NCBI GenBank assembly: GCA_003327425.1
Contig: QOQW01000001.1
Span: 1-64,000, forward strand
Direction of reading: 5' to 3'
Source of the DNA: Candidatus Ozemibacter sibiricus
Lineage (GTDB): Bacteria > Muiribacteriota > Ozemobacteria > Ozemobacterales > Ozemobacteraceae
Length of the DNA stretch: 64,000 bases
Shown piece by piece: positions 315 to 47,411 of this stretch; position 1 is the first letter of the stretch, and every line of letters starts with the position of its first letter. The translations under genes were made by a program, and so were the position numbers. The notes beneath the pieces were generated by a model that worked only from the letters and a program-made list of their open reading frames with translations, was not told the DNA's origin and did no database searches.

Positions 315-1754
315 GTGAACGGAACGGTTGAGCTGCGCGTCCTGGACGGGGAACGGCGAGGGCAGGTGCTGTCCTTCGCCTCTCCGGCGGTTGTCTTGTT
401 CGGCAGGGTTCCCGATGCCACTCTGTGCATCGTGGAAGATCCGTTCGTTTCCCGGCATCATTTCCTGCTGGAGATTTCCCCTCCCTTTTGTCGGCTGACC
501 GACCTGGGGAGTCGCAACGGGGTCTTCGTCAATGACACGCTCTACGGCGGCCGGGCGAGTGGTGCCCGCAAGAACGCCTGGCCTCTGCCGCCGTCTTCGG
601 TGTTTTTGGGCGATGGCGATCAGATCGTAGTCGGAAAAAATCGTTTGCAGGTCTTCATCGCAGCGGCGTCGACTCCAGGTTTCCAGCCGTTGCGGCGTAT
701 CCGAGAGGCCTTGCGCCGCGGGCCGTCCGGTCTGGCGGTGGCCACGCCCCGCATGGGCGAGCTGGGCGCCGGAGCGCAGGTGGGCCGCTACCAGGTCGAG
801 GAGGTCATCGGGTACGGTTGGATGGGCGCGACCTACCGGGCCACCGATGGCGTGACCGGTGGCCGAGTCGTCCTCAAGACGCTCGTGCCCAACATCGTGT
901 TCGATGAAGGTGCGGCGGCGCGATTTCTGGCTCTCGCCCAGCCGCTGACAGGGCTGGTTCACCCCCGGATCGTACGCCAGCTCGATGTATGGCGCTCGGG
1001 CAACATCTTCCTGGCGGCGCAGGAATATCATGAAGGGGTGAATCTGAAAGAATTTCTTGCGCAGCGCGGAGGACGCCTGGCTCTGGAAGAGGCCTTGCCC
1101 TTGATGAACGACATCCTGGACGCTCTGGTCTGGGCCGAAGCCGAGGGGTGCCTCAAGGCGCAAGGGACGGCGGTGGGCGAGTCTGCCAGTCGCGAGCGTC
1201 TCTGGCACCGGAACCTGAAGCCCCAGAATATCCTGGTGAGCGGGGAAGGGGGCGCCCGGCGAGCCTTGATCGTTGACCTGGGGCTGTTCAGCGGGCTCGA
1301 ACGGGCGGGGCTCATCCAGATGATTCTGGCGGGATTATATGCCGAGGCCGCTCCATATTGGCCCCGCGAGCGCGTCACCTTCTATGGGCAGACCATCGGG
1401 CCGTCGGAAGTCTTCTCGGTGGCCGCGCTGCTCTATGAATGCCTGACGGGGGCCCGGCCCCGCGAAGGCTTTGCTGCCTGGCCGGCCGAGGCGCGCCAAG
1501 CCGGTCGTCCGATCGGGCTGGCCGAGGTGATGCGGGTGATGGCCGAGCACCCTCCTGTTCCGATTCGGGAGCGTCGCCCGGATCTCCCCCCTGTCGTAGC
1601 GGAAGTTTTCGATCGAGCGCTGGCCGAACCGATGGTCATGCGGGGGCAGGAAGACCCGGCCGAGGTTCTGGCACGGGCGCGCTTCCCCGATCTGGCGGCC
1701 TTGCGGCGCGCGTGGCAAAGCGCCTGCGCCGCGGCCGGATGGCCGATCCGCTGA
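315..1754 (+). CDS. FHA domain - degenerate Ser/Thr kinase (pseudokinase-like) protein
   Basis: 479 aa from a GTG start. Residues ~5-105 form an FHA phosphothreonine-binding domain (GRVPDATL, SRHH, GSRNGVFVN). Residues ~155-460 form a Hanks-type kinase fold. The glycine loop reads GYGWMG and the ATP lysine is kept (K188). The catalytic HRD is HRN (N300, followed by LKPQN) and the DFG motif is DLG (D321). Loss of the catalytic Asp suggests a pseudokinase or very weak kinase, while the metal-binding Asp and the Asn of KPQN remain. No membrane segment is seen, so it is probably cytosolic. A full kinase fusion begins 166 bases downstream on the same strand, making it a plausible phospho-dependent partner of that enzyme. 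The partnership is inference; the fold assignment is firm. Confidence 0.85.
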   Translation: MNGTVELRVLDGERRGQVLSFASPAVVLFGRVPDATLCIVEDPFVSRHHFLLEISPPFCRLTDLGSRNGVFVNDTLYGGRASGARKNAWPLPPSSVFLGDGDQIVVGKNRLQVFIAAASTPGFQPLRRIREALRRGPSGLAVATPRMGELGAGAQVGRYQVEEVIGYGWMGATYRATDGVTGGRVVLKTLVPNIVFDEGAAARFLALAQPLTGLVHPRIVRQLDVWRSGNIFLAAQEYHEGVNLKEFLAQRGGRLALEEALPLMNDILDALVWAEAEGCLKAQGTAVGESASRERLWHRNLKPQNILVSGEGGARRALIVDLGLFSGLERAGLIQMILAGLYAEAAPYWPRERVTFYGQTIGPSEVFSVAALLYECLTGARPREGFAAWPAEARQAGRPIGLAEVMRVMAEHPPVPIRERRPDLPPVVAEVFDRALAEPMVMRGQEDPAEVLARARFPDLAALRRAWQSACAAAGWPIR

Positions 1755-1871
1755 CCCGGCCTATTCCGAACACGAAGCCGCGCGAGTGGGAAGGAGCGCG
1801 TCCGCGGCGGGTGGCCCTCGAGATCGCCAGTCCAGGGCCGCGGGGAGGGTGTGCTATCATGAGGCGCAGCG

Positions 1872-1889
1872 AGGGAGCCCCCGCTCCCT
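1872..1889 (+). other. Small GC hairpin between the two kinase genes
   Basis: AGGGAGC and GCTCCCT pair around a CCCC loop, 31 bases before the next start codon. There is no T-tract. It may attenuate or stabilise mRNA between the FHA-pseudokinase and the kinase fusion, or be chance in GC-rich DNA. Confidence 0.3.
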
Positions 1890-1920
1890 GAACGAACGGG
1901 CGAGGACGGACGAGCGGTCG

Positions 1921-4900
1921 ATGTTTCCCAACGGGGCGCTCATCAATGGGCGATACCGCCTTTTGATCAAACTCGGCGAAGGCGGGATGGGAGCGGTCTT
2001 CAAAGCCTACGAAGCCGAGATGTCGCGGGTGGTCGCGCTGAAGTTCCTGCATCCGGATGTCGCCCGCGATCCGGTGGGGGCTGGCCGGTTCCGGCAGGAA
2101 GGCGAGATCCTCGCGACCATCCGGCATCCGCGGATCGTCGAGATCTACTGCCTGGAAACCGAAGAGAAGACCGGGCTGCCGTTCATGGTCATGGAGTTTT
2201 TTCCGGGGCGGAGCCTGATGGATTTCCAGAAGCGGCTGGCCCAGGATCCGCTGCGGGTGATCCGGTTGTTCATCGATCTTCTGGATGGCGTGCAGGCGTT
2301 CCATGCCCGGCAGATCGTCCATCGCGATCTGAAGCCGGCCAATCTGCTGCTCGATCCCCGGGGCGCGCTGAAGATCGTCGATTTCGGCATCGCCAAAGGG
2401 GCGCGCCAGCAGACCCAGCCAGGGCTGGCCCTGGGAACGCCCTGGTACATGTCGCCCGAGCAGTGCGAAGGAAAGCCGGACATCACCCCCAAATCCGACA
2501 TCTATTCCCTCGGGGTGGTGCTGTGGGAAGTGCTGACCGGCGCGCCGCCTTTCAAGGTGCCGACCGAAGCGTCAGATCCGATGCTGGCGGCCATCATCCA
2601 GCATCTGACCGCGCCGCCTCCGCTCGAGGAGCTGGAGCGCAGCCCCTTTGGCGTCTGGTTCACCGATCTGCTGCGCGCCATGCTCGAAAAGGACCCGAAG
2701 CGGCGGCCGGAGATTCCCGCCATCGTCGAGGCCTTGCAGACCATCAAAAGCCGGCTGCTGGCGCGTTCCGATGCGATCGAATGGCGCTTCCCGGTGCATC
2801 GGCTCCTGCAGGCCGGACCGTTCGGCGGGGTCCATGAAGGCAGGGATGCCCGCACCGAGGCGCCGGTCTTGATCCGGGTGCTGGTGGCTTCTCCCGCCTG
2901 TCACCGAGCCGAGGAGGGGCCGTCGGGCTCGCGACCGGACTCGCCTCGGCCGGCCCCCGGCCGCGAAGCTGATAGTGGCCAGGCATCGGCCATCGAGCGG
3001 CGCCTGCAGCGTCTGGCCGAGGTCAAGCATCCGGTGCTGTGCCCGGTCATTCAGTACGGGTATGACCAGGAAAAGCAGCGGTTCTTCCTGATCCAGGAGG
3101 CGCCGGGCGGCGATTCCCTGAGGGCTCGCCGGGAAGCCCTGGGCCAGGATCGCCAGGCCGCCGCGACCTTCCTGTTGCGGCTGCTCGAAGGTCTGGAGCC
3201 TCTGCATCGGCTGGGCGAGCCGCATGGCAACATCCATCCCGATTTCCTGGGGATCGACCAGCAGGGAAATCCGCGGCTCAGCGGCTTCCCCATCACGGCG
3301 CGAACCACCCGGACCAGGGCGGAGTCGGGGGAGGCCGGTCGCTACCTGGCCCCCGAGCAATGGGGGCCCGAGCCGGCGACGCCGGCGGCCGACATCTATT
3401 CGGCAGGGCTGGTCTTCTGGGAAGCGCTCTTCGGCAAGCTCCCGGCGAGTGTTCCGGACCAATCCCCGGTCGCGCCGGTCGCGGTGGCCGCGGCCTCGAC
3501 GCTGGCGGAGACGTTGTCCCTCCAGCCGTTGTCGCCGCAGGATCCGTTGTTCCCGTTCCTGGACTCGCTCCTGGCCATGCTCCGACCGGACCCGCGCCAG
3601 CGGCCTTCGTTGGGCGATCTGCTCCGTGGCCTGCGAGACGTGGTGGCGGCCTTCGATCGCGCCGTGGTCCAGGGGGGAAGGGGCGTGGTCCGGCGCCAGT
3701 GCCTGATTCTGACCCGAGATGCGGCCGTGGCCACGCTGATCGAGCTGACCCTGAAGGAGTATGGGTTCCAAGCGCGACGGGCGCGCAGCTACGCTGACAT
3801 GACCCGCTTGTCGGGCCAGGTTCCGACGGTGGCCTGGTTCATCGATCTGGATGGCTACCTCAAAAGCGTGGCCGACATCACGGCGCTGGCCTTGAAAGCG
3901 GCGCCAGAAGCGAAGATGGTCTTCCTGGCGACGGCCTTCACCCGGGAGCTGGCCGAGGAATGCCTCGACCAGCGGGCGGTCGGGCTCCTGGTCAAGCCGT
4001 TGGTCATCCCTCGCCTGGTGCAGACCCTGAACGCGCTGTGCGAGGAGCCCGAACTCGTCGAGCGCGATGGGCTGTCGGCGCTCCGTCCTGACCTGGCGGG
4101 CGATGAGGCAGTGAGCCGCGCCGCCGTGGGGCAGGGGGGCAGCCCTTTGCAGATCCTTTTTTTCGAATGCGGGGTGTGCGGGGAACGATTCGGCAGCCCG
4201 CAGTTCAAACCGGGCGCGTTCGAGGTCCAAGGCACCGAGACCGATTTCTGCCCGATCTGTCCGGCCGGGGTGGTGCCTGAGCTCTATGCGATCGTCGTGT
4301 GTCCGTCGTGTCTGTATGCGAATTTCGCGGGCCGGTTCTCGCGGGTGGAGGCGGCGGCCGAGGCGCTGGCGAGCTTTCTGGCGCCGCCGGCCAGCGAACG
4401 ACGGAGCAAAGTGGCTCTCGATCTCGACTTCGGTGGCGAACGTGGACTGGTCGAGGGGTGCCGCAGCTACGAGCTGGCCGCCCTGACCGTCGAAGAGCTG
4501 GCTCCCCTGGAATACGACCGGCAGGCGAGCGGCATCTTCCTGAAAGGAGCCTGGCTCTGCCGGCGTCTTGGCAAACCCTTGATGGAAACAGAATTCTTGA
4601 GTCGGTCGCTGGAATGCCTGGTGCGGCTCTACCACCCGTACCTGCTCTTGAGCAGCCGCTTCCCGGGGTGGGAGGCGGTGCAGGAGCGGCTGAAACCAGG
4701 CCAGAAGCCTCTTTCCGAGCGAGCCGTGGTGGTCAACGGGTTTCTCGCGGCCGAGCTGTCGGCCCGGCTCGGGCTGGCCGAGCAAGCGGAATTCTACTTC
4801 GAGCAGGTGTTCGGGCTGCCGTTCCTGTCACGGTATCCCCTGTTGTCACGGCATATCCATGCCGCCTACCGGACCTTTAAATTCAGGACGGACCAGCCCC

Positions 4901-4926
4901 CGGACCGGACCTCACCGGGGGCTTGA
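1921..4926 (+). CDS. Ser/Thr kinase - pseudokinase - receiver-like - DUF2225 fusion
   Basis: About 1001 aa. The frame is open further upstream, but the ATG at 1921 is chosen because the kinase homology begins right after it (GRYRLL, then GEGGMG at 19-24). Kinase 1 looks active: K41, HRD (D136) followed by LKPAN, DFG (D154), and a TPWYMSPE activation segment. Residues ~290-560 are a second kinase fold lacking catalysis, with HGNIHPD in place of HRDLKPxN and SGF in place of DFG. Residues ~594-715 resemble a response-regulator receiver with a candidate phospho-Asp in FIDLDG and the conserved Lys in LVKPL, but the N-terminal acidic pair is incomplete. The C-terminal ~255 residues match DUF2225: paired Cys motifs (CGVCGERFG, CPIC, CPSCLYANF) then helical repeats. 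It is probably a cytosolic signal integrator. Domain boundaries are approximate. Confidence 0.88.
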   Translation: MFPNGALINGRYRLLIKLGEGGMGAVFKAYEAEMSRVVALKFLHPDVARDPVGAGRFRQEGEILATIRHPRIVEIYCLETEEKTGLPFMVMEFFPGRSLMDFQKRLAQDPLRVIRLFIDLLDGVQAFHARQIVHRDLKPANLLLDPRGALKIVDFGIAKGARQQTQPGLALGTPWYMSPEQCEGKPDITPKSDIYSLGVVLWEVLTGAPPFKVPTEASDPMLAAIIQHLTAPPPLEELERSPFGVWFTDLLRAMLEKDPKRRPEIPAIVEALQTIKSRLLARSDAIEWRFPVHRLLQAGPFGGVHEGRDARTEAPVLIRVLVASPACHRAEEGPSGSRPDSPRPAPGREADSGQASAIERRLQRLAEVKHPVLCPVIQYGYDQEKQRFFLIQEAPGGDSLRARREALGQDRQAAATFLLRLLEGLEPLHRLGEPHGNIHPDFLGIDQQGNPRLSGFPITARTTRTRAESGEAGRYLAPEQWGPEPATPAADIYSAGLVFWEALFGKLPASVPDQSPVAPVAVAAASTLAETLSLQPLSPQDPLFPFLDSLLAMLRPDPRQRPSLGDLLRGLRDVVAAFDRAVVQGGRGVVRRQCLILTRDAAVATLIELTLKEYGFQARRARSYADMTRLSGQVPTVAWFIDLDGYLKSVADITALALKAAPEAKMVFLATAFTRELAEECLDQRAVGLLVKPLVIPRLVQTLNALCEEPELVERDGLSALRPDLAGDEAVSRAAVGQGGSPLQILFFECGVCGERFGSPQFKPGAFEVQGTETDFCPICPAGVVPELYAIVVCPSCLYANFAGRFSRVEAAAEALASFLAPPASERRSKVALDLDFGGERGLVEGCRSYELAALTVEELAPLEYDRQASGIFLKGAWLCRRLGKPLMETEFLSRSLECLVRLYHPYLLLSSRFPGWEAVQERLKPGQKPLSERAVVVNGFLAAELSARLGLAEQAEFYFEQVFGLPFLSRYPLLSRHIHAAYRTFKFRTDQPPDRTSPGA

Positions 4927-4958: not shown

Positions 4959-5201
4959 TCAGGCCTTGTCCTCGAGCTTCTTGGGATGGCAGAGGGCGGT
5001 GGGTTCGACCGCTACACGACCGCACGCCGAGCAGAAATGCTCGACCTTCTCGATCATCGGCTTGCAGAGGTGGCGTTCCTCGCCGGCCTTGGCCCCGCAG
5101 TATTCGCAGGCGAAGACCTTCTTGGCCGGGGTCGGATCGCACAGATGACCAGGATCGGCGGCGACCGCGCCGCAGGTCTTGCAGGTACGCAGGTGGGACA
5201 T
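4959..5201 (-). CDS. Small triple zinc-ribbon-like protein
   Basis: 80 aa on the minus strand. The ATG at 5201 is preferred over an upstream in-frame start because GGAGA lies about six bases before it. The protein is three near-identical units, each CxxCG followed ~9 residues later by HLCDP, HLCKP or ALCHP. Twelve or more possible metal ligands (Cys/His) fill the chain, so each unit probably binds one zinc or the units pair to share metals. No catalytic motif is visible. It stands alone, convergent with the kinase fusion and with its own promoter. Its function is unknown; a zinc-stabilised binding module is the simplest reading. Confidence 0.75.
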   Translation of the reverse strand: MSHLRTCKTCGAVAADPGHLCDPTPAKKVFACEYCGAKAGEERHLCKPMIEKVEHFCSACGRVAVEPTALCHPKKLEDKA

Positions 5202-5247
5202 AGGTTTCTCCGAGATCACCGGCGACGCCGGAAGTTAGTCTAATCTA

Positions 5248-5426: not shown

Positions 5427-6536
5427 ATGGCCCATCGTGTCGGCGTTCATTCCGAAATGTTCTTCCAGGCCCGCCGGACGGAGCTGGTGGTGGAGGCGTT
5501 CACTGGCCGCGGGCGAAAGCCCCCGACAGGGAAGACCGACATCGAGCAGGATCTGCTCGACCTGTCCCCGCTGGCCACCCTGGGCACCGCTCTCGACCGG
5601 TTCCGGCGCGAGAGTCCCGACGGCGCCCGGTTGCAGATCACCTACACGGTGACCGAGGTGGCCAATGGCCTGAAAATCGGCAACCCTCGGCTCGAGCGCG
5701 ATCTCGATTTCCTGCTGCGGCTGATTGCGCGCGATGACGAGGAGCTGGCGCGTCTCCGGGCGCAGTTTCGAGAACTGCTGGATCTCGCCTCGGCAGGAGC
5801 GACGGGGGCGTTCGCCTCTGCCGCGGGAGGGGGCGAGGGCAGTCGCGTGCGAGCGGCCTCGGCGGAGGGTGTCGGTGCGGCCGCCGAATCCGGCGAGGCC
5901 GATCGGCCGGCGCTGGCCTGGACGGCCGATATGGAGATCCTCAGGGAGCTCAGCATTTCGCTGGAGAAGGTCCAATCGCGGCTCGAGATCCGGTCGGCGC
6001 AGGTGAAGAAGATCGATCCGCTGGTGCTCGATCTGGACGGCAACGGCTATGATCTCACCGAGGCCGGCGAAGGGGCCAGCTTCGACATCGATGCCGACGG
6101 CCGGCTCGATCGGACAGCCTGGGTCAAAGGCGGCGATGCCTTGCTCGTCCTCGATCGCAACGGCAACGGCCGGATCGACGATGGCCGGGAACTGTTCGGC
6201 GACCAGAACGGAGCGGCCAACGGATTCCTCGAGCTGGCGACATTCGATCGCACCAAGGATGGCCGGATCGACCAGCGCGATCCGGTCTTCAAGGCGCTCC
6301 AGCTCTATCGTGACCTCAATGGCGACGGGGCCATCCAGGCCAGGGAGCTGGCCAGCCTGCCCGAGCTGGGCATCGCGTCGCTCGATCTGCGGTTCATCCG
6401 CCAGTTGTCCGAGATCCGAGGGAACACCCTGATCCTGGAGGCCAGCTTCACCCGCACCGACGGGACGTCAGGCAAGATCGGCGATTTCCAGTTCGGCTAT
6501 CGCCCGGGAGCCGGAGCTCCTATTCCCAAGGGATGA
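5427..6536 (+). CDS. EF-hand-like calcium-binding repeat protein
   Basis: 369 aa with an excellent ribosome site (AAGGAGG ending 7 bases before the ATG). Residues 1-125 are helical and unrecognised; 125-170 is an Ala/Gly-rich linker. From ~205 onward there are at least five calcium-loop motifs: DLDGNG, DIDADG, DRNGNG, DRTKDG and DLNGDG, with the block DGRELFGD. This module is known from large secreted haemolysin-type and adhesin-like proteins, where it binds Ca2+. No signal peptide is visible, so export would need another route, or the protein is internal. No obvious operon partner; the next gene starts 109 bases later. Confidence 0.72.
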   Translation: MAHRVGVHSEMFFQARRTELVVEAFTGRGRKPPTGKTDIEQDLLDLSPLATLGTALDRFRRESPDGARLQITYTVTEVANGLKIGNPRLERDLDFLLRLIARDDEELARLRAQFRELLDLASAGATGAFASAAGGGEGSRVRAASAEGVGAAAESGEADRPALAWTADMEILRELSISLEKVQSRLEIRSAQVKKIDPLVLDLDGNGYDLTEAGEGASFDIDADGRLDRTAWVKGGDALLVLDRNGNGRIDDGRELFGDQNGAANGFLELATFDRTKDGRIDQRDPVFKALQLYRDLNGDGAIQARELASLPELGIASLDLRFIRQLSEIRGNTLILEASFTRTDGTSGKIGDFQFGYRPGAGAPIPKG

Positions 6537-9977: not shown

Positions 9978-12782
9978 ATGATGGGTAGAAATCTGATGAC
10001 TGATCCCGCGGCGATCGCCGCGTGGGTGGAACGCCACCGACGAGCCTTGTCGGGCCGTGGTCTGTGGCTGCGGGGCGGCGAGCCCAATACCCTCGATCCG
10101 GCGGGCTTCGGGGCGGCCCGCTTACGGGTGCTGATCGTTCGGCTTTCGGAATATGGCGAGGTGGCGGCCGGGCTCACCCATTCCCTGCTCTTCCAGTTGG
10201 CCGCCGGAGTGGAGGGCGTTTACGTCGACCTCGCCTTCCTGCCGTCGGCGCGCGACGAGTCCCTCATGCGGCGGGACGGCATTCCGCTGCTGGTGGGCAC
10301 AGGATCGAAGCAGCCGGCGAGCGCGTTCGATATCCTGGCGGTCAGCAACTCGGTGGTGCAGGAGCTGATCAATCTGCCGGCCCTGCTGGCGCATTCGGGC
10401 ATTCCCTTGTCGCGGGAAGGGCGGGCAGCGGGCCGGTTCCCCTTCGTGCTCCTGGGAGGAAGCAACTCCTACGTGACGTCGGTGCTGCACGGCCCGCTCG
10501 GCTCGTCAGAGGAAGGTGGCGGGGCCGGGCTGGTCGACGGGGTGGTGGTCGGCGATGGCGAAGAGGCGTTCCCGCGCTTCCTTGCGCTGGCTCGCGATCT
10601 GGCAGGCCAGGGCCGTGCTACTCTGCTGGCGGCCGCCCGGCGTGATGTGCCCGGCTTCTACGATCCGTCGGCCTATCGGCAGGAATTCGATGGGGCAGGG
10701 CGGTTGGCCCGCATTGTCCCAGCGGCGGGCGCCCCTTTTCCGGTCAGAGCGCATCGGGCCGATCCCGAGGCACCGAAAAATTACTTTGTACGAGGGCCCA
10801 TTTTCTATCATGAAGAGGCCGCCGGCACCGCGCCCCTTCTGGTGACCTCCGGATGCCCGTATTTCTGCTCCTTCTGCAAGGAGTCCTGGGAGCAGAAGCC
10901 CTACCGGGAACGGCCGGTGGCTCGCCTGATCGACGCGGCGCGGCAGATGAAGGCCAATCTGGGGCTGAGCGAGATCGGTCTGATGACCTTCAACCTGAAC
11001 ACCTGCTCCGGGTTGCGCCCGTTGCTGGCTCAGCTGGACCGGCTCTTCGACCGGGTGGCGCTGAAGAGCCAGCGCTTCGATGCGATCGCCTACGCTCCCG
11101 ACCTGCTCGAACGGCAACTGGCCGCTGGGAAACGGACCTATACCTGCGCCATGGAAGGGATCAGCGACCGGCTGCGCGAGCGGTTGCAGAAGAACCTGCC
11201 CGAGGCGGTGCTGCTGAAGGGCTTCCAGGAGTTGTTCCAGCGCCAGGTGCGGCAGATGAAGGTCTTCGTGATCGTCACCGGCTGGGAGGAGGAGAGCGAC
11301 CTGCAGGAATTCGGCCGGCTGCTCGATCGACTCAAGAAGATGATGGAAGGCCGGCGCGGCCGACCGTTGCTCACGTTCTCGCTGGCGGCGTTGTTCCGGC
11401 CGCCCCGCACGCCCTTGCAGGCCATGGCGCGCCCCGGCGGGATGGCTCGGCTCGAGCATCTGATGCAGCGGGTGTTGACGGCGGTCAGGCAGGCGGGATT
11501 CGAGGGACGGATCAGTGCGGGCCCGGCCGACGCCATCGTTTCGGAATGGCTGGCCTATGCCGACCGGCGCGGGACCGCGCGCCTGGTCGAGGCTTCGGTG
11601 GCGCGGGGCTTCCGCTACCGAGGGGAATGCGGGGCTGACCTGGCTGCTTTCTTGACCACCGACTCCCCGACCCCGACCGGACCGGAAGGGTATCTGAGCC
11701 CGGTCGCCGCAAGATCGGACCTCGAGGGTCGCCCATCACCATCGCCTGAGCGGCGGGCAAGCGCCAGTGGCTCGGGTGAGGAAAGCCCGGAAAAGGCCGA
11801 GGTGGCGGGCATCGCCAGAGAAGAGGGGCATGTTCGCCATGGTAGGGTCTTATACCCTTGGGACGATGTGGATGTCGGGGTCTCGGCCGAGTTTCTGGCC
11901 CGCAATACCGCCGTTCTCGAACAAGGTGGTTCTTTGCCGTCGTGTCTGGCTCGCCCCTTCGGAGGCGGGGCCTGCCTCGGCTGCGGAGCCTGCCGCACCG
12001 ATGCCGAGCGCCAGACCACGCTGCAATGGGCGCCGCCGGACGAGGGGCTGGGCGTGGCTGCCAGAGCGGGATCTGGAGCAACCCCGACCGGGCCGGGGAG
12101 CGCTCGCGCTCGAGGCGGCGCGGCGCGGGCCGAGCCCGTGCTCCGGCGGTGGCGGGTGGTGGCGAGCCTTCCGCGGCGGTGGGCCGAGACCGGCCATCGC
12201 TTCCTGGGGGCGGTGCTGGCTCGGAATCTCATGCGCGGGCTTCCCGGTTTGGTGGAGACCTTCGTGCGGGTCGATCGGAGCATGGAGCGACAGGCCAGCT
12301 ATGGTCTGTTCTGGGCGGAAATCCTGGTGAAGGCAGAATGGTCCGGGCCAGCCCCAGCCGATCGCGTCGGGGCGTCGACTCCTGGGGCCGGTTTCCCGCT
12401 GAAAGGCGAAGACGCCGATGGGATGGTGATTCATGAGGTGCGTCTGGTGCCTGGCCGGGCCGACGTGCCGGGCGACGAACCGGGGTACCAGCTTCGGCTC
12501 GAGCTGCCGAGCGAGGGTATCGATCCGGCCCCGCGGGTCGATGAGGTCTTGCACAGGTATCGATGGGCTCACCAAAAACGATGGATCGGCGATCGCCTGA
12601 CCTGGCTGTTGAACCCCGGCCAGGCCAAGAAGAGCGGGCTCGTCCGTCTCGAATGGCGGCGGGGGGTCGGCAGCCTCGAACTCGAGGTCCTGCGCTGGCC
12701 TGAACCTCACGTCCTGCCGGCCTTGAGCGGTGGGGATGGCCTCTGCGAAGTGCTGGCGTTCATCAAAAAGCCGTCTTTGTGA
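9978..12782 (+). CDS. Large B12-binding-type radical SAM protein with C-terminal Cys cluster
   Basis: 934 aa from the first ATG; starts at 9981 and 9996 are also possible because a GGAGG abuts 9978. Residues ~45-225 resemble a cobalamin-binding (Rossmann-like) N-domain. C293, C297 and C300 form the CPYFCSFC radical SAM motif that binds the catalytic [4Fe-4S] cluster and S-adenosylmethionine. The barrel continues to ~550. A Pro/Ser/Ala-rich linker follows, then a second Cys motif (GACLGCGACRT) that could hold an auxiliary cluster or zinc, and a C-terminal ~200-residue domain I do not recognise. The gene is monocistronic with long flanks. The reaction is unknown: methyltransfer or B12-dependent rearrangement would be typical. 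Confidence 0.8.
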   Translation: MMGRNLMTDPAAIAAWVERHRRALSGRGLWLRGGEPNTLDPAGFGAARLRVLIVRLSEYGEVAAGLTHSLLFQLAAGVEGVYVDLAFLPSARDESLMRRDGIPLLVGTGSKQPASAFDILAVSNSVVQELINLPALLAHSGIPLSREGRAAGRFPFVLLGGSNSYVTSVLHGPLGSSEEGGGAGLVDGVVVGDGEEAFPRFLALARDLAGQGRATLLAAARRDVPGFYDPSAYRQEFDGAGRLARIVPAAGAPFPVRAHRADPEAPKNYFVRGPIFYHEEAAGTAPLLVTSGCPYFCSFCKESWEQKPYRERPVARLIDAARQMKANLGLSEIGLMTFNLNTCSGLRPLLAQLDRLFDRVALKSQRFDAIAYAPDLLERQLAAGKRTYTCAMEGISDRLRERLQKNLPEAVLLKGFQELFQRQVRQMKVFVIVTGWEEESDLQEFGRLLDRLKKMMEGRRGRPLLTFSLAALFRPPRTPLQAMARPGGMARLEHLMQRVLTAVRQAGFEGRISAGPADAIVSEWLAYADRRGTARLVEASVARGFRYRGECGADLAAFLTTDSPTPTGPEGYLSPVAARSDLEGRPSPSPERRASASGSGEESPEKAEVAGIAREEGHVRHGRVLYPWDDVDVGVSAEFLARNTAVLEQGGSLPSCLARPFGGGACLGCGACRTDAERQTTLQWAPPDEGLGVAARAGSGATPTGPGSARARGGAARAEPVLRRWRVVASLPRRWAETGHRFLGAVLARNLMRGLPGLVETFVRVDRSMERQASYGLFWAEILVKAEWSGPAPADRVGASTPGAGFPLKGEDADGMVIHEVRLVPGRADVPGDEPGYQLRLELPSEGIDPAPRVDEVLHRYRWAHQKRWIGDRLTWLLNPGQAKKSGLVRLEWRRGVGSLELEVLRWPEPHVLPALSGGDGLCEVLAFIKKPSL

Positions 12783-12828: not shown

Positions 12829-12902
12829 AAGGGGGCCATCGGTCGGTATCGGGCCAGGGAGGCCGCGGCAGGTGGCACAACGCGCGCAAGGAGTTCGTGA
12901 CT

Positions 12903-13271
12903 ATGGCCAAGATACTGCTCGTCGATGATGACAAGGACTTCGTGGACATCAATCGCGCCCATCTCGAAAAGCATGGGTACACCGTGGTGGCCGGCCACAA
13001 CCCCCAGGAAGGGATGGCCCTTTTGCACAAAGAGAAGCCAGACCTGCTGATCCTGGACGTGATGATGGAAGAAGCCGACGATGGTTTTGCCATGGCCCAG
13101 AAGATCCGCAAAGAGGGCAACAAGATCCCGATCATCATGCTGACCTCCGTTGCCAAGATCACCGGGCAGTCCTACGGCAAGGACAGCGCCATGGTGCCGG
13201 TGAACGAGTTCTTCGAGAAGCCGGTGCCGGCCGACAAGCTGCTGGCTGCCATCAAGAAGTACGTGAAATAA
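12903..13271 (+). CDS. Stand-alone response-regulator receiver protein
   Basis: 122 aa, only a receiver domain. The ATG at 12903 is preferred over the GTG at 12897 because AAGGAG sits nine bases upstream. Complete phospho-acceptor set: acidic VDDD near residue 8, the phospho-Asp in LILDVMM, Thr in MLTS and Lys in FEKPV. There is no output domain, so it must act by protein contact or as a phosphate relay. It is the first gene of the hydrogenase operon and begins the transcript, 13 bases ahead of the NuoE-like subunit. That placement suggests signal-dependent control of the hydrogenase complex, but this is inference; no cognate histidine kinase is present. Confidence 0.92.
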   Translation: MAKILLVDDDKDFVDINRAHLEKHGYTVVAGHNPQEGMALLHKEKPDLLILDVMMEEADDGFAMAQKIRKEGNKIPIIMLTSVAKITGQSYGKDSAMVPVNEFFEKPVPADKLLAAIKKYVK

Positions 13272-13284
13272 CGAGGAGACCGTC

Positions 13285-13803
13285 ATGCTCGCATCCGAAA
13301 AAGACCAACTCCGGCACGAAATCACCGCGATCGCCAAAAAGTACGAGTTCCATCGCAGCGGGTTGATGCCCGTTCTGCAACATGTGCAGCGGGCCTACCA
13401 TCACATTTCCCCGGAAGCGATGCAGGAGGTGGCCGATGTGTTCGGCATCCATCCTGCCGAAGTGCATGGGGTGGTGAGTTTCTATTCCTTTCTGTCCACC
13501 AAGAAGAAGGGGAAATTCATCATTCGGCTGTGCCAGACCATCTCCTGCGAGATGGCTGATAAGAAGGCCATCGCCACGCAGCTCGAGAACGACCTGGGCA
13601 TCAAATTCGGCGAGACGACGCCCGATGGCATGTTCACCCTGGAATACACCAACTGCCTGGGCATGTGCGATCAGGGGCCGGCCATGCTGGTCAATGACGA
13701 AGTCTACACCAAGGTGACGCCGGAAGGGGTGGCCGATATCATCGAAAGCTATGTCAAGAAGTTCGGGGCGCACGTGACCCACGAAGAAGGAGCCGAGAAA
13801 TGA
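13285..13803 (+). CDS. hydC: [FeFe] hydrogenase NuoE-like [2Fe-2S] subunit (HydC/HndA)
   Basis: 172 aa with GAGGAG before the ATG. Thioredoxin-like NuoE/24-kDa fold. The four [2Fe-2S] ligands are present as C83-x4-C88 and C124-x3-C128. It passes electrons between the flavin subunit and the hydrogenase chain in trimeric NAD(H)-linked enzymes. Its last bases overlap the next gene (ATGA), typical of translationally coupled subunits. Confidence 0.93.
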   Translation: MLASEKDQLRHEITAIAKKYEFHRSGLMPVLQHVQRAYHHISPEAMQEVADVFGIHPAEVHGVVSFYSFLSTKKKGKFIIRLCQTISCEMADKKAIATQLENDLGIKFGETTPDGMFTLEYTNCLGMCDQGPAMLVNDEVYTKVTPEGVADIIESYVKKFGAHVTHEEGAEK

Positions 13804-14987
13804 GCCGCCACAAGACCGATCTGGTGATCTTTTCCGAGATTCACGTCGACCAGGCCTTGAAGAAGGCCCTGGCCCGCGAGCGGGCCGATCTCATCAACGA
13901 AGTGCGCGACAGCGGCCTGAAAGGGCGCGGCGGCGCGGGCTTCCCCACCGGCACCAAATGGAATCTGGCGGGCGCGGCGCAGGGCGATCGCAAGTTCGTG
14001 GTCTGCAATGCCGACGAAGGCGAGCCGGGTACTTTCAAAGATCGAGTGCTGCTCACCGATTACGCCGAGCAGCTGATCGCCGGCATGGTGGTGGCGGGCT
14101 ATTGTATCGGCGCCCGGGAAGGCATCATCTACTTGCGGGGCGAGTACGAATACATGATGCGGGGTCTCAAAGAGACCATGGTCGCGATGCGCAAGCGGAA
14201 CCTGCTGGGCAAGGACATCGCGGGAAAGAAAGGCTTCGAGTTCGACATCCACATCCATCTCGGGGCGGGCGCCTACGTCTGCGGCGAGGAAACGGCCCTG
14301 ATCGAGAGTCTCGAAGGACATCGCGGCGAACCCCGCAATCGGCCGCCCTTCCCGGTCACTACGGGGTATCTCGGCTGTCCCACGGTGGTCAACAACGTCG
14401 AGACCTTCATTACCGCGTTCCACATCATCGACAAAGGCGCGGCCTGGTTCAGGAAGTTCGGAACCGACAAATCGACCGGCACCAAGCTGTTCAGCGTATC
14501 GGGCGATTGCGCCCGCCCGGGCGTCTATGAGTTCCCGATGGGCATCACGGTGGCCAACCTGCTGAAGGAGGTCGGGGGCGAGAACGCCAAGGCCGTTCAG
14601 ATCGGGGGCGCGTCGGGGCGGTGCGTGGCGCGCCATGAGTTCGGTTCGACCATCGCTTATGAAGACATTCCCACCGGCGGCTCGATCATCGTCTTCGGGC
14701 CCCACCGGAACATGCTGCAGGTGGCGAAGAACTTCATGGAATTCTTCCTCGAGGAATCCTGCGGTCAGTGCACTCCCTGCCGGTATGGCACCGAAACCCT
14801 CCTGGAAGGGATCAAACTGCTCGAGCAGAAGAAATGTCCGATGAAGTATCTGCGTGAATTGATCTCCTTGGGCGAGACGATGCAGGTGTCGAGCAAGTGC
14901 GGTCTGGGGCAGTCGGCCCCCAACGCCTTCATCTCGATCCTGCAGAACTTCAAGCACGAGATCCTGGCCCATCCGCAGGGCGAGTGA
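13800..14987 (+). CDS. hydB: [FeFe] hydrogenase NuoF-like FMN/NAD(H)-binding subunit (HydB)
   Basis: 395 aa, overlapping hydC by four bases. It contains the NuoF core: GRGGAGFPTGTKW (FMN), ADEGEPGTFKDR, a GAGAYVCGEETA NAD-site loop, an SLBB segment, and the N3-type [4Fe-4S] ligands C321, C324, C327 and C367. It oxidises or reduces NAD(H). Compared with the ~600-residue HydB of Thermotoga-type enzymes, it lacks the N-terminal [2Fe-2S] extension and the C-terminal 2x[4Fe-4S] ferredoxin domain, so it is a minimal form. Confidence 0.93.
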   Translation: MSRHKTDLVIFSEIHVDQALKKALARERADLINEVRDSGLKGRGGAGFPTGTKWNLAGAAQGDRKFVVCNADEGEPGTFKDRVLLTDYAEQLIAGMVVAGYCIGAREGIIYLRGEYEYMMRGLKETMVAMRKRNLLGKDIAGKKGFEFDIHIHLGAGAYVCGEETALIESLEGHRGEPRNRPPFPVTTGYLGCPTVVNNVETFITAFHIIDKGAAWFRKFGTDKSTGTKLFSVSGDCARPGVYEFPMGITVANLLKEVGGENAKAVQIGGASGRCVARHEFGSTIAYEDIPTGGSIIVFGPHRNMLQVAKNFMEFFLEESCGQCTPCRYGTETLLEGIKLLEQKKCPMKYLRELISLGETMQVSSKCGLGQSAPNAFISILQNFKHEILAHPQGE

Positions 14988-15006
14988 AGACAAGGGAGAG
15001 AACAAC

Positions 15007-16950
15007 ATGGCTCACAAACAACCCCACAACAGCCAGTGCGGCAGCGATCGCGCTCCTCTCAGCCAGCGCCGCTTCAAGATGCCGGAAATCAAGAACGAGA
15101 AAGATCTGGGCGCCATGGTCAAGGTGACCATCGACGGCACGGAGATCGAAGTGCCGTTCGGCACCACCATTCTCGATGCCGCTCGGAAGCTGAACATCAA
15201 GATCCCGACGCTGTGCTACCACGAAGATCTGTGCGTTGCCGGCGTGTGCCGGGTCTGCGTCGTGGAGGTCGAAGGGCAGCGCACCCTGCAGGCCGCCTGC
15301 GCCTACCCCGTAACGGGGCCGATCAAAGTGTCGACCTATTCCGCCAAAGTGCGCAAAGCGCGCCGCCACAACCTCGACCTCATGCTCAAGCACCACTATG
15401 GCGAGTGCTATAGCTGCGTGCGCAACAACAACTGCGAGCTGCAGAGCCTGGCCAAGGAGTATGGCGTCGATTTCTACCGCTTCGGCCACGTCGACAAGCC
15501 GCATCATGAGATCGATCGCTCCAGCTACAGCGTCGTGCGCGACATGAACAAGTGCATCCTGTGCCGGCGCTGCGTGCGCACCTGCATCGACCTGCAGGAA
15601 GTGGGCGTGCTCGAGGCGATCAATCGGGGGCCCCACACCGAGATCGCCACTTTCAACGAGATGCCGCTGGGCGATGTGATCTGCATCAACTGCGGCCAGT
15701 GCATCAATCGTTGTCCGGTCGGCGCTCTGCGGGCCAAGGATCCGTCCGATGAGATCTGGGCGGCGATCGACGATCCCAACAAGCATGTCGTCATCCAGAC
15801 CGCGCCCAGCCCGCGCGCCGCCATTGGCGAATGTTTCGGCCTGCCGCCCGGCACCTCGGTCACTCGCCAGCTCAACACCGCCCTGCGCCGCGCCGGCTTC
15901 GACAAGGTCTTCGACACCAACTTCACGGCCGACCTCACCATCATGGAGGAGGCCACCGAGCTGTTGATCCGCCTCAAGAAGGCCCTGGTCGATAAAGACA
16001 AGACCGTCAAGCTGCCGCAGTTCACCTCCTGTTCTCCGGGCTGGGTGAAGTTCTGCGAGCATTTCTACCCGGAGTTCACCGATTACCTGTCGACCTGCAA
16101 GAGCCCGCAACAGATGTTCGGCGCCCTGCTCAAGACCTGGTACGCCGAGCGGGCCGGCATCGATCCCAAAAACATCGTCACCGTGGCGTTGATGCCGTGC
16201 AGCGCCAAGAAATTCGAGTGCAACCGCCCCGAGATGACCTCGAGCGGGTACAAAGATGTCGATTATGGTCTGACCAGCCGCGAACTGGCCCAGATGATCA
16301 TGGAAACGGGGCTCGACCTGCCCAATTTGCCGCCGTCGGACTTCGACGATCCGGTGGGTGAGGCGTCGGGCGCCGGTCTGATCTTCGGGGCCACCGGCGG
16401 CGTCATGGAAGCCGCGCTGCGCACTGCCGTCGAAGTGGTGACGGGCGTCAAGACCGAGAACATCTTCAAGAACCTGGACATCATTCCAGTGCGTGGGTTC
16501 GAAGGGGTGCGGTACTACGAGATTCCCATCGAGAAGACGGCACCCGTCCCGCCCTTGCTGCAGAAAGCCATTGGCGTTAAATCCTTCGACTTCCTCAAGG
16601 GGGCGACCTTGAAGGTCGCGGTGGCCCATGGCACCGCCAACGCTCGCCGGGTCATGGAAGACATCAAGGCCGGCGGGAAGTTCGCGGAAGCGCATTTCAT
16701 CGAATTCATGGCCTGCCCCGGCGGCTGTCTGGGCGGCGGCGGTCAGCCCATTCCGACCTCGCCCGAGATCCGGGAGGCGCGCGCCAAGGCGATCTATGCG
16801 GAAGATGCCGAACTGGCGGTCCGCAAATCGCATGAAAACAAACATGTGATCGATCTCTACAAGGAATTCCTGACCGATGGTCCGTGCGGCCACAAGTCGC
16901 ACCACCTGCTCCACACGCACTACCTGAAGCGCGGCAAGCGCATCGTGTGA
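15007..16950 (+). CDS. hydA: [FeFe] hydrogenase catalytic subunit (HydA, trimeric/bifurcating type)
   Basis: 647 aa, the usual size for HydA of NADH/ferredoxin-linked hydrogenases. The ATG at 15007 has GGGAGAG six bases upstream. Domains: N-terminal [2Fe-2S] plant-type ferredoxin (C70, C81, C84, C98); a NuoG-like His/Cys cluster (around C134); two [4Fe-4S] CxxCxxCxxxC motifs (~180-240); H-cluster domain from ~255. The three H-cluster motifs are TSCSPGW (C342), MPCSAKK (C398) and a CPGGC motif (C570, C574) followed by LGGGGQP. The first normally reads TSCCPxW; here the second Cys is Ser343. The chain reversibly produces H2. No HydE/F/G maturases lie in the window, so they must be elsewhere. 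Confidence 0.94.
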   Translation: MAHKQPHNSQCGSDRAPLSQRRFKMPEIKNEKDLGAMVKVTIDGTEIEVPFGTTILDAARKLNIKIPTLCYHEDLCVAGVCRVCVVEVEGQRTLQAACAYPVTGPIKVSTYSAKVRKARRHNLDLMLKHHYGECYSCVRNNNCELQSLAKEYGVDFYRFGHVDKPHHEIDRSSYSVVRDMNKCILCRRCVRTCIDLQEVGVLEAINRGPHTEIATFNEMPLGDVICINCGQCINRCPVGALRAKDPSDEIWAAIDDPNKHVVIQTAPSPRAAIGECFGLPPGTSVTRQLNTALRRAGFDKVFDTNFTADLTIMEEATELLIRLKKALVDKDKTVKLPQFTSCSPGWVKFCEHFYPEFTDYLSTCKSPQQMFGALLKTWYAERAGIDPKNIVTVALMPCSAKKFECNRPEMTSSGYKDVDYGLTSRELAQMIMETGLDLPNLPPSDFDDPVGEASGAGLIFGATGGVMEAALRTAVEVVTGVKTENIFKNLDIIPVRGFEGVRYYEIPIEKTAPVPPLLQKAIGVKSFDFLKGATLKVAVAHGTANARRVMEDIKAGGKFAEAHFIEFMACPGGCLGGGGQPIPTSPEIREARAKAIYAEDAELAVRKSHENKHVIDLYKEFLTDGPCGHKSHHLLHTHYLKRGKRIV

Positions 16951-45600: not shown

Positions 45601-47088
<1,488 letters not shown>

Positions 47089-47090
47089 GG

Positions 47091-47411
47091 TCAGCCTCCT
47101 GCCCCGGCCGTGGCCGGTGCCGATTTGTCGAAGATGGTGCGTCCTTCCAGGCAGACGGAATCGACGATGCCGACGATGGCGGCGTCGGCCGGCGCTTCTT
47201 TGTCGCCGAGCAATTGCTGCACCGAGCTGCCTTCCTTCATCAGCAGGACCACCTCATCGAGGTCGGCGCCCATGAAGTCGATCGCCAGCACCTCCGGGCC
47301 CTTGGGCTGAAGGGCGAGGTCGACGGGCTGGACCAGCAGCAGAGGCCGTCCGTCGAAGGCGCGGTGCTTGAAGGTGGCCACCACCTTGCGAACGACGCGC
47401 CCGAGATTCAT
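47091..47411 (-). CDS. Microcompartment vertex protein (EutN/CcmL, BMC-P)
   Basis: 106 aa. Family start [13 protein letters not shown], then the LLLVQP strand and [11 protein letters not shown] near the C-terminus. Pentamers of this fold cap the vertices of the icosahedral protein shell. It starts within the four-base overlap with the other vertex gene and ends two bases before the aldolase gene. Confidence 0.92.

Follow-up and report, generated by a model that had tools for sequence, protein, structure and literature searches.

A linked pair of genes for an FHA-pseudokinase and a kinase-pseudokinase-receiver-DUF2225 protein in one family of Candidatus Riflebacteria

What might a bacterium do with two adjacent genes that together encode one evident Ser/Thr kinase, two kinase folds with altered active sites, an FHA domain, a receiver and a DUF2225 domain? 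The genes, here called P1 and P2, lie near the beginning of the stretch of DNA that we analysed (the window, 64 kb). The window is the first part of contig C7 in a genome of 5.7 Mb (G000) and opens with the end of a 5S rRNA gene (bases 1-91). The host belongs to a family of uncultured bacteria whose named members are Candidatus Riflebacteria MAGs. A sequence-only reading of the locus had described a phospho-relay assembled from folds that usually occur apart. The domains and motifs it described are present, far beyond what chance would give, and both frames have the codon-position GC of coding sequence. P1 and P2 were searched for in 40 genomes of the phylum, and comparison samples of 379, 392 and 292 genomes were drawn from the Myxococcota, the Planctomycetota and the phylum of the Obscuribacterales.

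Domains and motifs of the two proteins

P1 (315..1754, forward strand, as are all features of the pair) encodes an FHA-pseudokinase of 479 residues, identified by Pfam and by comparison with its orthologs, and is a short form without the cyclase domain found in the long form. In an alignment of five orthologs the FHA domain (residues 28-76, 396..542; Pfam E 9e-10) has the canonical GR, SR.H and S.NG..N positions conserved in all five, with a His-to-Asn change in one. The fold and the binding-loop residues Arg, Ser and Asn are those expected of a phospho-Thr reader. The kinase fold (Pkinase residues 159-383, 789..1463; Pfam E 3e-13) has HRN instead of HRD in its catalytic loop (1206-1214), and HRN is conserved in all four P1 orthologs whose sequence spans the loop, bearing out the earlier description of an FHA reader joined to an HRN kinase fold. 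By its motifs the domain is a pseudokinase through loss of the HRD catalytic Asp, a substitution that is no proof that all activity has gone. The VAIK Lys, the catalytic-loop Asn and the DxG Asp are retained in the alignment, so P1 may have kept the ability to bind ATP. The window copy, a long branch in the tree, has no alpha-C Glu; in G016 this residue is apparently lost or shifted.

P2 (1921..4926; Pfam and orthologs) encodes 1001 residues. Its open reading frame begins at GTG 1786, but we ruled this out as the start, as the orthologs in G011 and G010 have their first residue opposite ATG 1921, which makes this ATG the most likely start; the end, at 4926, had been placed correctly. The first kinase domain (residues 13-270, 1957..2730; Pfam E 7e-68; HRD at 2320-2328) has the VAIK Lys (as VALK), alpha-C Glu, HRD, catalytic-loop Asn, DFG and APE all intact, with each motif present in every ortholog that spans it, and its best PDB matches are PknB and PknA. 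These motifs mark it as a predicted active PknB-type Ser/Thr kinase. The second (residues ~276-590, 2746..3690; Pfam and motif alignment) retains APE and has lost the VAIK Lys, HRD (now HGN), the catalytic-loop Asn and the DFG Asp (SGFP or GGFP) in six of six orthologs. With Lys and both Asp residues gone throughout, it is classed as a pseudokinase. The description of P2 as an active kinase followed by a pseudokinase, a receiver and DUF2225 thus stands, with motif calls valid in all orthologs that span them.

The receiver-like domain (residues ~591-708, 3691..4044) has no Pfam match in window P2 and was recognised by profile and structure. A profile of 13 sequences, combining the C-terminal half of P2 with stand-alone homologs, was compared with the PDB, where receivers head the list and make up nearly all matches at E ~1e-3. 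The AlphaFold model of the receiver-DUF2225 part (mean pLDDT 82.6) has the canonical (beta-alpha)5 order in the receiver, and a Foldseek search with the receiver model gave receivers or receiver-containing proteins in 50 of 50 cases among the matches listed. The phospho-acceptor Asp and the Lys-Pro are invariant (13/13). The acidic pair that holds Mg2+ at the end of beta-1 is reduced to one residue, an Asp in 12 of the 13 sequences, while the other metal-site position is non-acidic (R, K, S, H or Q among the residues seen) and the beta-4 Thr/Ser varies. As the pair is down to a single acidic residue, we regard the domain as an atypical receiver. The DUF2225 domain that follows (residues 749-971, 4165..4833; PF09986, Pfam E 5e-22) scores 79.1 bits against a gathering cut-off of 21, and combines a zinc ribbon, whose two CxxC pairs are invariant, with a helical, TPR-like tail.

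Distribution, linkage and origin of the pair

P2 occurs in seven of the 40 genomes of the phylum, all of one family (G000, G016, G013, G011, G010, G005 and G017); the contig in G005 is incomplete and the copy in G017 is a decayed remnant. P1 was found in G000, G016, G011, G010 and G013, each of which also has P2. The sequence-only reading had staked its case partly on the two genes being linked elsewhere, and they are: in four of the five genomes with both (G000, G016, G011 and G013), which represent three genera, P1 and P2 lie side by side in the same orientation. The P1 gene of G013 is interrupted by an assembly break, and we count the genes as adjacent because its final codons (RYPDLAAFRTALLEACEAVGWTRGG, stop) are found 92 nt upstream of the P2 ATG. 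In G010 they occupy separate contigs, and neither lies near a contig end. Five genes that follow P2 in the window have no match at the P1-P2 loci of G016, G011 and G013, and match only in G017. As the window's neighbours are unmatched at the other pair loci, the pair has been conserved as a unit. In G017 P2 has decayed and no close P1 was found, so the system is dispensable. The G017 remnant (L088, 1-3100 of contig C176) fuses the end of the pseudokinase in frame to the C-terminal part of DUF2225, and has neither receiver nor zinc ribbon.

An extended -10-like box, TGTGCTATCAT, at 1850..1860 (forward strand), lies 69 nt before the ATG of P2; the same sequence stands at the same distance from P2 in G013, and it occurs once in the window, where a scan tool did not report it. 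Its presence in both genomes suggests that P2 may have its own promoter. Some genomes have boxes of this kind ahead of P2, and G011 has them ahead of each of the two genes, so P1 and P2 may be transcribed separately.

The earlier reading would also have failed had the fusion of a kinase to DUF2225 been widespread. It is not: it was found in one Riflebacteria family only. Large DUF2225 frames of the phylum, checked with kinase and DUF profiles, contain no kinase except in P2, and no such fusion was found in the 379-, 392- and 292-genome samples, whose phyla do not include Bacillota and Spirochaetota, where DUF2225 may be frequent. DUF2225 is rare in the three phyla sampled, and its weak matches at kinase-bearing loci there span chiefly the TPR-like half. 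The frames and samples checked rule out the view that kinase-DUF2225 fusions are common, and we found nothing on the architecture of P2 in the literature on DUF2225 and on Riflebacteria kinases. The two genes are linked and restricted to this lineage, and the combination is new, but its modules are already paired in the family.

This pairing runs against the idea that the folds of P2 usually occur apart. Kinase-free receiver-DUF2225 proteins of ~410-425 residues, 34-43% identical to the C-terminal half of window P2, stand alone in seven genomes of its family, where tandem kinases with both domains intact are common as well. In a tree of kinase domains the first kinase of P2 falls near the first domains of the tandem kinases, and its second attaches beside their second domains (split support 89/81), a placement made uncertain by a long branch. 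The simplest reading of these sequences would be that P2 derives from a tandem kinase, that the motifs of the second domain were lost, and that the chain became joined to a receiver-DUF2225 module. Two tandem kinases of the window's own genome (on contig C39, 1803 and 1416 residues) have two successive kinase domains like P2, but neither of their kinases has lost a motif, and their C-termini are unlike that of P2.

Other arrangements of these modules were also seen. One of the two C39 Ser/Thr tandem kinases (L133, L134) has a C-terminal beta-helix region. In G009 (contig C198; L092, 3365-5728) two receiver-DUF2225 genes adjoin, the second split across two frames. Proteins in G026, G022 and G024 (L054, L055 and L058) read as a cyclase-like end, an FHA domain and an active kinase, and adjoin a second kinase gene, forming another cyclase/FHA/kinase pair in the family; a related protein in G016 has a Clp_N match.

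A cyclase domain in the relatives of P1

The P1 proteins of G016, G011 and G010 are longer than those of the window and G013 by ~170 C-terminal residues, which the short forms lack. The extra residues carry both metal Asp residues and the transition-state Arg of class III cyclases, together with the Lys/Asp pair associated with ATP preference, and have His for the transition-state Asn. Their profile matches solved class III cyclases in the PDB (E 1e-7), and the predicted fold resembles the adenylyl cyclases Rv1900c and Ma1120 (E 1e-10 to 1e-9). Sequence and model agree in identifying the C-terminus of long P1 as a predicted class III nucleotidyl cyclase. Within the phylum this cyclase subfamily is found solely inside P1 of the three genomes, with no second copy there. 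We also considered whether the domain had moved elsewhere in the window's genome, and found no copy (one match at E 0.003, none at 1e-10). A short P1 peculiar to the window, or produced by an assembly error, was rejected too, since P1 in G013 stops at the same short C-terminus, with P2 immediately after it. The two genomes with short forms cluster in the P2 tree (86/90) and, more weakly, in the P1 tree (57/52), and their grouping in the P2 tree fits a single loss or a single gain of the cyclase.

The cyclase is likely to be the output in these relatives of P1, and their possession of it makes P1 look more like a phospho-controlled output protein than a step in a relay. In long P1 the pseudokinase lies directly N-terminal to the cyclase, as the KHD does in the eukaryotic receptors GC-A and GC-B, and control of the cyclase by a phosphorylated pseudokinase is established for GC-A (PMC9672810). 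The likeness implies no orthology: long P1 is bacterial, its FHA domain takes the place of hormone receptor and membrane span, and the window copy is cyclase-free. The TOMM system kinase/cyclase fusion (TIGR03903) similarly has a kinase fold and a cyclase in one chain. P1 scores 59.7 bits against that model, below its cut-off of 705.75, matches through the kinase part only, and differs in having HRN in its kinase fold and an FHA domain upstream of it.

Bacterial pseudokinases are largely unstudied (PMC12599244). In Mycobacterium tuberculosis the FHA domain of FhaA docks on the phosphorylated tail of the MviN pseudokinase, and the complex with PknB shows that such proteins, an FHA protein together with a kinase and a phosphorylated dead kinase, can work as a single switch (PMC12599244). 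P1 and P2 combine the same elements: a predicted active kinase of the PknB type, a dead one and an FHA reader. The mycobacterial elements are three separate proteins that act on cell-wall synthesis, whereas P1 has FHA and pseudokinase in one chain and the P2 kinase, unlike PknB, is fused to a second pseudokinase, a receiver and DUF2225. Pfam finds no MviN/MurJ integral-membrane part in P1 or P2, and neither belongs to the MviN type, which is defined by that part.

How the pair might signal

Our main reading, to which we give a probability of about 45%, is that the genes encode a soluble Ser/Thr phospho-signalling pair, with P2 as writer kinase and P1 as its FHA-bearing reader and effector partner. 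The first kinase of P2 would be the active writer, while its pseudokinase, atypical receiver and zinc-ribbon/TPR-like DUF2225 would gate kinase activity and dock partners. The FHA domain of P1 would read phospho-Thr, probably on the activation loop or tail of P2 itself, and the HRN pseudokinase would serve as an ATP-binding allosteric scaffold. We infer from the observed domains, motif states, orthology, linkage and short and long forms that P2 may phosphorylate P1 and be docked by its FHA domain, with the receiver and DUF2225 as putative inputs and the pseudokinase controlling the cyclase where there is one. The motif states fixed across the family count in favour of such a pair (first P2 kinase intact, second dead in 6/6, HRN in 4/4), as do the conserved FHA positions, the maintained adjacency, the presence of P2 wherever P1 was found, the cyclase at the end of long P1 and the mycobacterial and GC-A precedents. 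Against it count the -10-like boxes that may point to separate transcription, the separation in G010, the decay in G017 and the state of the window's P1, which is cyclase-free, long-branched and without the alpha-C Glu.

As the pseudokinase directly precedes the cyclase in long P1, phosphorylation by P2 and FHA docking may there switch cyclic-nucleotide synthesis; in the short forms of the window and G013 the FHA-pseudokinase might have P2 itself, or proteins encoded elsewhere, as its target. The fullest version, which we consider unlikely as a whole, is a two-protein switch: P2, with its own pseudokinase, receiver and zinc/TPR-like module, would phosphorylate and dock P1, and the dead kinase of P1 would exert allosteric control over the cyclase fused to it. 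If true, bacteria would have their own equivalent of the way in which receptor guanylyl cyclases couple a pseudokinase to a cyclase, and the switch would join cyclic nucleotides to Ser/Thr phosphorylation and aspartate receivers.

The genes might instead be independent neighbours, P2 being one more reshuffled architecture in a lineage rich in kinases and P1 acting on other kinases. The abundance of kinases in the family genomes, other tandem kinases among them, fits this view, as do the two genes living apart in G010 and the separate promoters that the -10-like boxes suggest. Adjacency in four genomes of three genera, where the window's other neighbours are unmatched, is harder to explain in this way, and P1 was never seen without P2; we therefore think independence rather unlikely. 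The suggestion that the window copy is decaying, with a truncated and functionless P1 at a locus heading for loss, draws on the missing cyclase and long branch of P1 and on G017, a genome of the same genus that retains only a P2 fragment. We rate it very improbable, because G013 is cyclase-free too and the grouping of the short forms in the P2 tree, echoed in the P1 tree, fits one stable change, while P1 keeps its FHA and kinase-fold motifs, P2 is full length with all motifs, and both frames have coding composition.

The sequence-only reading had proposed a relay. Pfam finds no histidine kinase or HPt donor in P1 or P2, and the metal site of the receiver has one acidic residue, so a His-Asp relay within the pair is not supported by sequence; a donor could be unlinked. 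A histidine kinase elsewhere in the genome might then act on the P2 receiver, which would switch the P2 kinase and through it P1. The invariant Asp and Lys-Pro and the canonical fold favour this branch, as does the same receiver preceding DUF2225 in the stand-alone proteins; the depleted metal site, the variable beta-4 Thr/Ser and a pair with no donor of its own weigh against it, and we judge it quite improbable. Ser/Thr kinases are known to modify response regulators (PMC4601284).

This small gene pair places two distinct conserved dead kinases beside an evident active kinase, with a measurable cyclic-nucleotide output added in relatives. With an active kinase and such an output, the pair should make bacterial pseudokinase function directly testable in vitro. 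The locus also places the uncharacterised DUF2225 in a signalling context.

Several other genes of the window deserve mention. Convergent with P2 lies a gene for a Cys-rich protein of ~80-86 residues with repeated CxxC (4959-5219, reverse strand), 83% identical in G017. Genes for an EF-hand-like protein (5427-6536, forward) and a radical SAM protein (Radical_SAM_N2; 9978-12782, forward) follow, and their order is conserved in G017 despite the decay of P2 there. A single-domain receiver (12897-13271) stands just before a gene run (13285-16950, forward) that ends in the large subunit of a multi-cluster [FeFe]-hydrogenase. Further along (45601-47411, reverse) a gene for an EutN/CcmL shell protein adjoins one for a DeoC-family aldolase, neighbours that hint at a bacterial microcompartment.
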